The position numbers and the translations under genes are program-made. This document shows, one piece after another, positions 18,127-60,486 of a stretch of 64,000 bases of DNA. Every line of letters starts with the position of its first letter. Positions within the stretch are counted from its first letter, which is position 1. The stretch is taken from contig CAIKOA010000006.1 in the NCBI GenBank assembly GCA_903828955.1, positions 1 to 64,000 of the forward strand, written 5' to 3'. The notes beneath the pieces are model-generated. The model was not told where the DNA came from, searched no databases, and worked only from the letters and a program-made list of their open reading frames with translations. Source of the DNA: an uncultured Microcaldota archaeon (GTDB taxonomy: Archaea; Micrarchaeota; Micrarchaeia; Anstonellales; Bilamarchaeaceae).

Positions 18127-18225
18127 CGGGCCCGACGGGATTTGAACCCATACTCCGAGGTTTCCCCTGCAATCAGGAGAAGGCATTCGAAGCCTCGTCG
18201 GCTATCCAGGTTACCAAACGGGCCC
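18127..18225 (-). tRNA. tRNA-Arg(TCG) with about 25-nt intron
   Basis: GGGCCCG/CGGGCCC acceptor; T-arm ATGGG-TTCAAAT-CCCGT; anticodon stem CGAGG/CCTCG enclosing CTTCGAA plus extra nucleotides. Confidence 0.82.
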
Positions 18226-59758: not shown

Positions 59759-60486
59759 GTGTCAGACATCCAAGAAGAAAGAATAAAGCCACAGCACATC
59801 GCCTTCATCCCTGATGGAAATTTGTGAAAACAACCATAAACAGGAGATGGGGCGAACTGCATGGCATTCCGCGCAAGGAGGCCTACGAAACCGGAATCCG
59901 CAAAATCAGCGACATCCTCGGCTGGTGCAGGGACGAGAACATAAGGAACGCGACCTTCTGGGGTTTTTCCACCGAGAATTTCGGCAGGGACCCGAACGAA
60001 ATCTCTTCCCTTTTCGAGCTTTTTGAAAAAGACCTGGTTGCAATCCTTACGCGCAAGAACGATGCCCTGCGGCAGAACGTGCGCGTGCGTTTCTTCGGAA
60101 GAATCAACCTTTTCCCGAAAAAGGTTTACGACCTCCTCCGCAAAGTGGAAGAGATGTCTGCCAACAATACGGATTACAACCTGAACATCCTCCTTGCTTA
60201 CGGAGGAAGGGCGGAAATAGTGGATGCAGCCAACGCCGCGCTTAAGGAAGGCAAAAAAGAGCTTTCTGAAGAAATCCTAAGCGCGCACATGTACACGCAC
60301 GGGCTCCCGGACCCGGACATGATAATCCGCACTTCCGGGGAAAGGCGCACAAGCGGCTTCTTGCCATGGCAAACGGTGTATAGCGAGCTCTATTTCAGCG
60401 AGAAGCTCTGGCCGGATTTTTCACGGGAGGATTTCATGGACGCGCTCCGTTTCTACGAGAAAACGCAAAGGAGATTCGGAAAATGA
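59759..60486 (+). pseudogene. uppS: Cis-prenyltransferase (undecaprenyl diphosphate synthase-like), reading frame interrupted in DGN/RRW motif
   Basis: GTG 59759: MSDIQEERIKPQHIAFIPDGNL*; then frame 59824: NRRWGELHGIPRKEAYETG...FSTENFGR...RTSGERRTSGFLPWQTVYSELYF. Confidence 0.8.

Follow-up and report, generated by a model that had tools for sequence, protein, structure and literature searches.

In the literature searched, the one BHB intron known within an archaeal coding sequence is that of cbf5 in the Crenarchaeota (PMC7714728, PMC2738675), where the bulge is cleaved between its second and third residues (PMC2738675). A search of open-access journal articles found no paper linking undecaprenyl synthases with BHB introns, and among archaeal coding sequences cbf5 was the only gene for which BHB introns were described. 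The epsilon2 endonuclease of ARMAN-2 has been solved structurally (PDB 4fz2, 9w2k), and a loop containing residues Y160 and K161 has been tied to its broad substrate specificity (2025 structure paper, PMC12397907). We describe here a candidate intron of the same kind as that of cbf5 in the cis-prenyltransferase gene of a Candidatus Micrarchaeota genome; this would be the second archaeal gene with a coding-sequence BHB intron in the literature searched, the kind having been a near-singleton.

A cis-prenyltransferase gene split within its catalytic motif

The window, the whole stretch of 64,000 nucleotides that was analysed, is contained in a 1.22 Mb genome (G000) that is 95.6% complete. Its cis-prenyltransferase gene is transcribed rightwards, with a GAPDH gene on one side and a DUF192 gene on the other, and is read in two frames. 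The upstream frame starts at GTG 59759, reads MSDIQEERIKPQHIAFIPDGNL in full, and ends ...KPQHIAFIPDGNL at a TGA (59825–59827, plus strand) that overlaps a GTG at 59824 and would truncate translation of an unspliced mRNA. The second frame ends at 60486 and reads ...NRRWGELHGIPRKEAYETG, with the NRRWGELHG... frame running from 59839 to 60486. The original prediction had described these frames, the overlap of TGA and GTG, and an interruption of about 20 nt inside the DGN-RRW motif, and the sequence agrees in each respect, with an insert of exactly 20 nt.

Exon 1 (59759–59819, plus strand) has a GTG start and encodes MSDIQEERIKPQHIAFIPDG together with one nucleotide of the Asn codon, as assigned from the window sequence and homologous N-termini in relatives; the predicted BHB intron (59820–59839, plus strand; ATTTGTGAAAACAACCATAA) follows, and exon 2 (59840–60486, plus strand) continues from NRRW to the stop codon. 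Exon 2 matches the cis-prenyltransferase family PF01255 (1.7e-68, 230.9 bits) and uppS TIGR00055 (198 bits). The predicted spliced coding sequence has 708 nt and encodes 235 aa, and only after the predicted splicing is DGN-RRW contiguous. A search across the genome for a second PF01255 gene, which the original prediction had proposed as a check, found none, and the cis-prenyltransferase is present in single copy.

Geometry of the insert

The insert and its flanks (all on the plus strand) form a BHB in which the exon-exon helix pairs CCTG (59810–59813) with CAGG (59841–59844), as seen from pairing and folding, and the central 4-bp helix pairs ATGG (59814–59817) with the intronic CCAT (59834–59837), as seen from the pairing pattern and covariation. 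The two bulges are both AAA, at 59818–59820 and 59838–59840, with predicted cuts at 59819/59820 and 59839/59840 by the rule described for cbf5 (PMC2738675), and the exon-exon pairing runs on imperfectly to about 14 bp (CGCC..CATCCCTG / CAGGAGATGGGGCG). The original prediction had drawn a hairpin, TTGT-GAAA-ACAA (59822–59833), enclosed by ATGG/CCAT; both this hairpin and the BHB as a whole belong to the minimum-free-energy structure (z = -5.0). The same prediction had placed the insert at 59821–59840, one nucleotide to the right of the position given by the BHB; because AAA is present at both ends, the two placements give an identical joined sequence.

The strict 4+4 BHB pattern by itself is not significant on a genome-wide scale, the window having 133 chance matches on one strand and 112 on the other, and the evidential weight lies in conservation, covariation, and frame restoration rather than in the pattern alone.

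Inserts at the same site in relatives

Relatives were found by searching with the downstream exon, and the DNA 5' of NRRW was then read directly. Seventy genes were read in this way, all from metagenome assemblies (MAGs), with an insert in 12 and none in 58. The interruption that the original prediction suggested looking for in relatives is thus present in 11 other genomes, and in 12/12 it falls at the same phosphate, between GGN and AAC of DGN. Six genomes of the window genus were searched, and five of them are carriers (G000, G002, G003, G004, G005); the remaining carriers are six genomes of the same family (G027, G011, G030, G033, G034, G064), in which several genera are thus represented, and one from another family of the class (G097); two are public records, JAUWMC010000073.1 and JACRGD010000010.1. 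The inserts are 15, 17, 20, 20, 20, 21, 28, 33, 35, 36, 41, and 69 nt long, and their interiors are mostly unlike in sequence, with an architecture common to all.

The 58 genes that are intronless at this point include that of a congener, G001, and the intact-site pattern is present in 259 of 301 genomes of the phylum. Among the genomes that have a match to the gene without an intact site, G191 and G250 have their contig end there, and G015 has the variant motif NRTW. The 12 carriers are a lower bound, because a stray match to the pattern elsewhere can hide an intron, as in G011.

Conserved architecture, covariation, and reading frame

All 12 genes have CCNG-AYGG-NA at the end of exon 1, CCRT-AA or a variant of it at the end of the insert, and A-CMGG at the beginning of exon 2, which together give an exon helix, a central helix of 4 bp, and a 3-nt bulge on each strand. 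The exon helix (CCTG/CAGG or CCGG/CCGG) has four of four pairs in every gene, and the central helix (AYGG/CCRT) has four of four in eight genes (one with a G-U), three of four in three, and two of four in one; the relaxed central helices, with one or two mismatches, are those of G011, G027, G034, and G097. The BHB is the minimum-free-energy fold in the window genome, in G004 (z = -5.1), and in several others, and the corresponding folds of G034, G097, and G027 show no clean BHB.

Covariation is seen in both helices, with a U-A pair replaced by G-C in the exon helix and a C-G pair by U-A in the central helix. Paired cells amount to 93.8%, compared with 84.6% in shuffled sequences, a level reached by 0 of 500 shuffles, and pairing in slid registers is 12–47%. 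All exon-helix pairs are present in 12/12 intron-containing genes and 8/58 intronless ones (Fisher p = 1.2e-8), and exon duplex energies are lower in the intron-containing genes (p = 7e-7), both values being uncorrected for relatedness. Synonymous codon constraint of this type is the trace that an RNA-folding requirement would leave in the coding sequence.

Cleavage of each bulge 3' of its second residue joins GAY-GGN-AAC-MGG and restores PDGNRRW in 12/12 genes. Each insert also closes the upstream frame with a stop codon (12/12; product of shuffle probabilities 0.0015). The excess is modest, because an insert of length 3n+2 can obtain its stop simply from the conserved CCRT-AA end, and the in-frame stops are suggestive evidence. 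Estimates of dN/dS for exon 2, which is under purifying selection, are 0.045–0.084 in those pairs where YN00 gave an estimate and 0.09–0.12 in a less saturated trio.

The original prediction had named five explanations and preferred none of them, one being a tiny BHB-like intron. The same-site inserts in 12 genomes, their geometry, the covariation, and the constraint on exon codons all favor that explanation, and we estimate a probability of about 0.93 that the 20 nt at 59820–59839 are a protein-coding (pre-mRNA) BHB intron of the cis-prenyltransferase. Removal by the tRNA-splicing machinery is indicated because the relatives' differing inserts at this one site can all be folded as a BHB.

Splicing enzymes and predicted processing

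The host genome encodes both enzymes that such processing would use. A 381-aa endonuclease can be aligned along its length with that of ARMAN-2 (PDB 4fz2; E = 2.3e-130), and the printed alignment to 4fz2 has conserved catalytic residues Y236, H251, and K282, as well as the ARMAN-specific loop residues Y160 and K161; judged by this similarity it is a tRNA splicing endonuclease of the epsilon2 type and closely resembles the ARMAN-2 enzyme. A broad-specificity loop would fit with the relaxed central helices of the four genomes noted above. The RtcB ligase is complete (1–426/426). The genome also encodes a second endonuclease-like protein of 160 aa (L033:1462–1944, minus strand, contig G000:C16), about 2.5 kb from the epsilon2 gene, which matches known endonucleases weakly and is possibly a structural or accessory subunit.

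In the predicted pathway, the flanking coding sequences of the transcript would pair with each other through CCUG and CAGG, extending to about 14 bp, and a 4-nt AUGG/CCAU helix would form between exon 1 and the 3' end of the intron, leaving the two AAA bulges. The epsilon2-type endonuclease would cut each bulge 3' of its second base, and RtcB would join the ends to give GAU GGA AAC AGG AGA UGG, encoding DGNRRW within the full 235-aa cis-prenyltransferase. Translation of the unspliced mRNA would stop at the in-frame UGA directly past the catalytic DG, so that expression of a functional enzyme would depend on splicing; this dependence is inferred, as are cleavage and ligation.

Alternative explanations

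Programmed translational bypass, in which ribosomes would leave the message at GGA and resume 3' of the insert with a hairpin promoting the hop, as in T4 gene 60, was among the options of the original prediction and would account for a stop codon directly past the take-off point and for the hairpin in most inserts. Bypass of the T4 type employs matched take-off and landing codons, but in 11/12 genes a codon other than GGN (ATA, GTA, GCA, ATT, TTA) precedes the landing site, and neither the two 3-nt bulges nor the exon-exon pairing maintained by codon choice is explained by it; we regard it as very unlikely.

The BHB could also be cleaved without ligation, as a processing element or off-switch that destroys or regulates the mRNA, and BHB cleavage in an mRNA 5' UTR is known from Haloferax HVO_1309 (PMC7714728). 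RtcB is present, however, the gene is conserved and single-copy, and the unspliced frame is always dead; because excision restores the catalytic motif exactly, twelve times out of twelve, there is only a very slight chance that the element acts by cleavage alone.

A two-subunit enzyme, with a short DG-containing peptide and a large subunit whose translation reinitiates at GTG 59824, was suggested by the overlap of TGA and GTG in the window genome, but this overlap is not conserved, the downstream frame of 9/12 genes has no ATG, GTG, or TTG ahead of RRW, and the large chain would lack the catalytic Asp, so that the suggestion can be set aside as scarcely credible. With sequences that all come from MAGs, one might suspect a mistake in assembly or sequencing, or else a pseudogene in decay, but unlike inserts lie at one site in independent assemblies of different species (including the two public records), exon 2 is under purifying selection with dN/dS of about 0.05–0.08 where estimable, and the gene is single-copy, leaving these explanations at the very bottom of the range.

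Gain and loss of the intron

When the BHB intron of the cis-prenyltransferase is placed on a quick protein tree built from the 70 genes, its distribution requires no fewer than eight changes, and well-supported branches force at least four; gain and loss are not distinguishable on this tree. In the intronless congener G001 (L007, G001:C47) the exon is strongly self-complementary (-22.8 kcal/mol) across the former splice site, and this complementarity is likely to be a fossil of recent, precise intron loss. BHB introns may be able to settle at the self-complementary coding motif ATCCCTG...CAGGAGAT. A broader proposal, to which we give slightly less than even odds, is that the conserved IPDG/NRRW motif is a self-complementary 'proto-splice site' at which BHB introns have been gained independently and repeatedly at one codon in the Micrarchaeota and are held by synonymous codons, all of them with an in-frame stop, such that lipid-carrier synthesis would be tied to the tRNA-splicing enzyme.

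Other introns and cbf5

The strict BHB scan of the window for a second intron gave matches at chance level, none convincing, and no other clear split gene was found in the window, where open reading frames tile about 96% of the sequence. A fifth tRNA gene (18127–18225, minus strand; Rfam 36.5 bits, missed by ARAGORN) has an anticodon-loop insert of about 25 nt and reads as a tRNA-Arg(UCG) whose intron occupies the canonical 37/38 position; a BHB that includes two G-U pairs can be drawn for it, though the minimum-free-energy fold differs.

The cbf5 gene of the window genome is one uninterrupted frame, and stop flags in cbf5 across the family lie outside the aligned body in most genomes checked. 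The cbf5 of G035 (L162, G035:C19) has a single in-frame TAG (TKL*RYI) and no insert, the surrounding region being conserved, and that of G014 (L157, G014:C126) has lost most of its C-terminal (PUA) region by deletion or frameshift; both were considered as BHB introns and neither resembles one.

Comparison with known systems

As a distant second case, and in an essential lipid gene, the cis-prenyltransferase intron would indicate that mRNA splicing of the tRNA type extends beyond cbf5 in archaea, and that split genes of this kind are mis-annotated by gene callers as truncated. The twelve-genome series, together with an intronless congener that has exon pairing, allows direct tests of gain, loss, and exon constraint, and for the partner enzyme the structure of a close homologue, that of ARMAN-2, is already solved.

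The closest described system is the cbf5 intron of the Desulfurococcales and Sulfolobales (Watanabe 2002; Yokobori 2009, PMC2738675), which likewise has its BHB inside the coding sequence and shares the tRNA splicing endonuclease cut (predicted here), patchy gain and loss, and a variable intron interior. The gene and host differ, cbf5 encoding an RNA pseudouridine synthase and the intron described here lying in a cis-prenyltransferase of a distant phylum, the Micrarchaeota. The BHBs described here are mostly canonical, whereas most of the cbf5 introns newly predicted in PMC2738675 have unconventional ones, and, unlike that of cbf5, the distribution of the cis-prenyltransferase intron calls for many gains or losses at a single codon. 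Archaeal tRNA introns and the ARMAN-2 endonuclease (PMC12397907) share the geometry and the cut rule, and the enzyme has a close homologue in the window genome, but the substrate here would be an mRNA, and the exon helix is formed from coding sequence rather than from the anticodon stem. The substrate of the BHB in Haloferax volcanii HVO_1309 (PMC7714728) is also an mRNA, as predicted here, but that BHB lies in the 5' UTR and this one in coding sequence. The mRNAs of yeast HAC1 and of XBP1 undergo tRNA-like splicing by a protein-only endonuclease and a ligase, as predicted here, but their endonuclease is Ire1, and their splicing is stress-regulated with unrelated recognition (PMC4090602 and general background).
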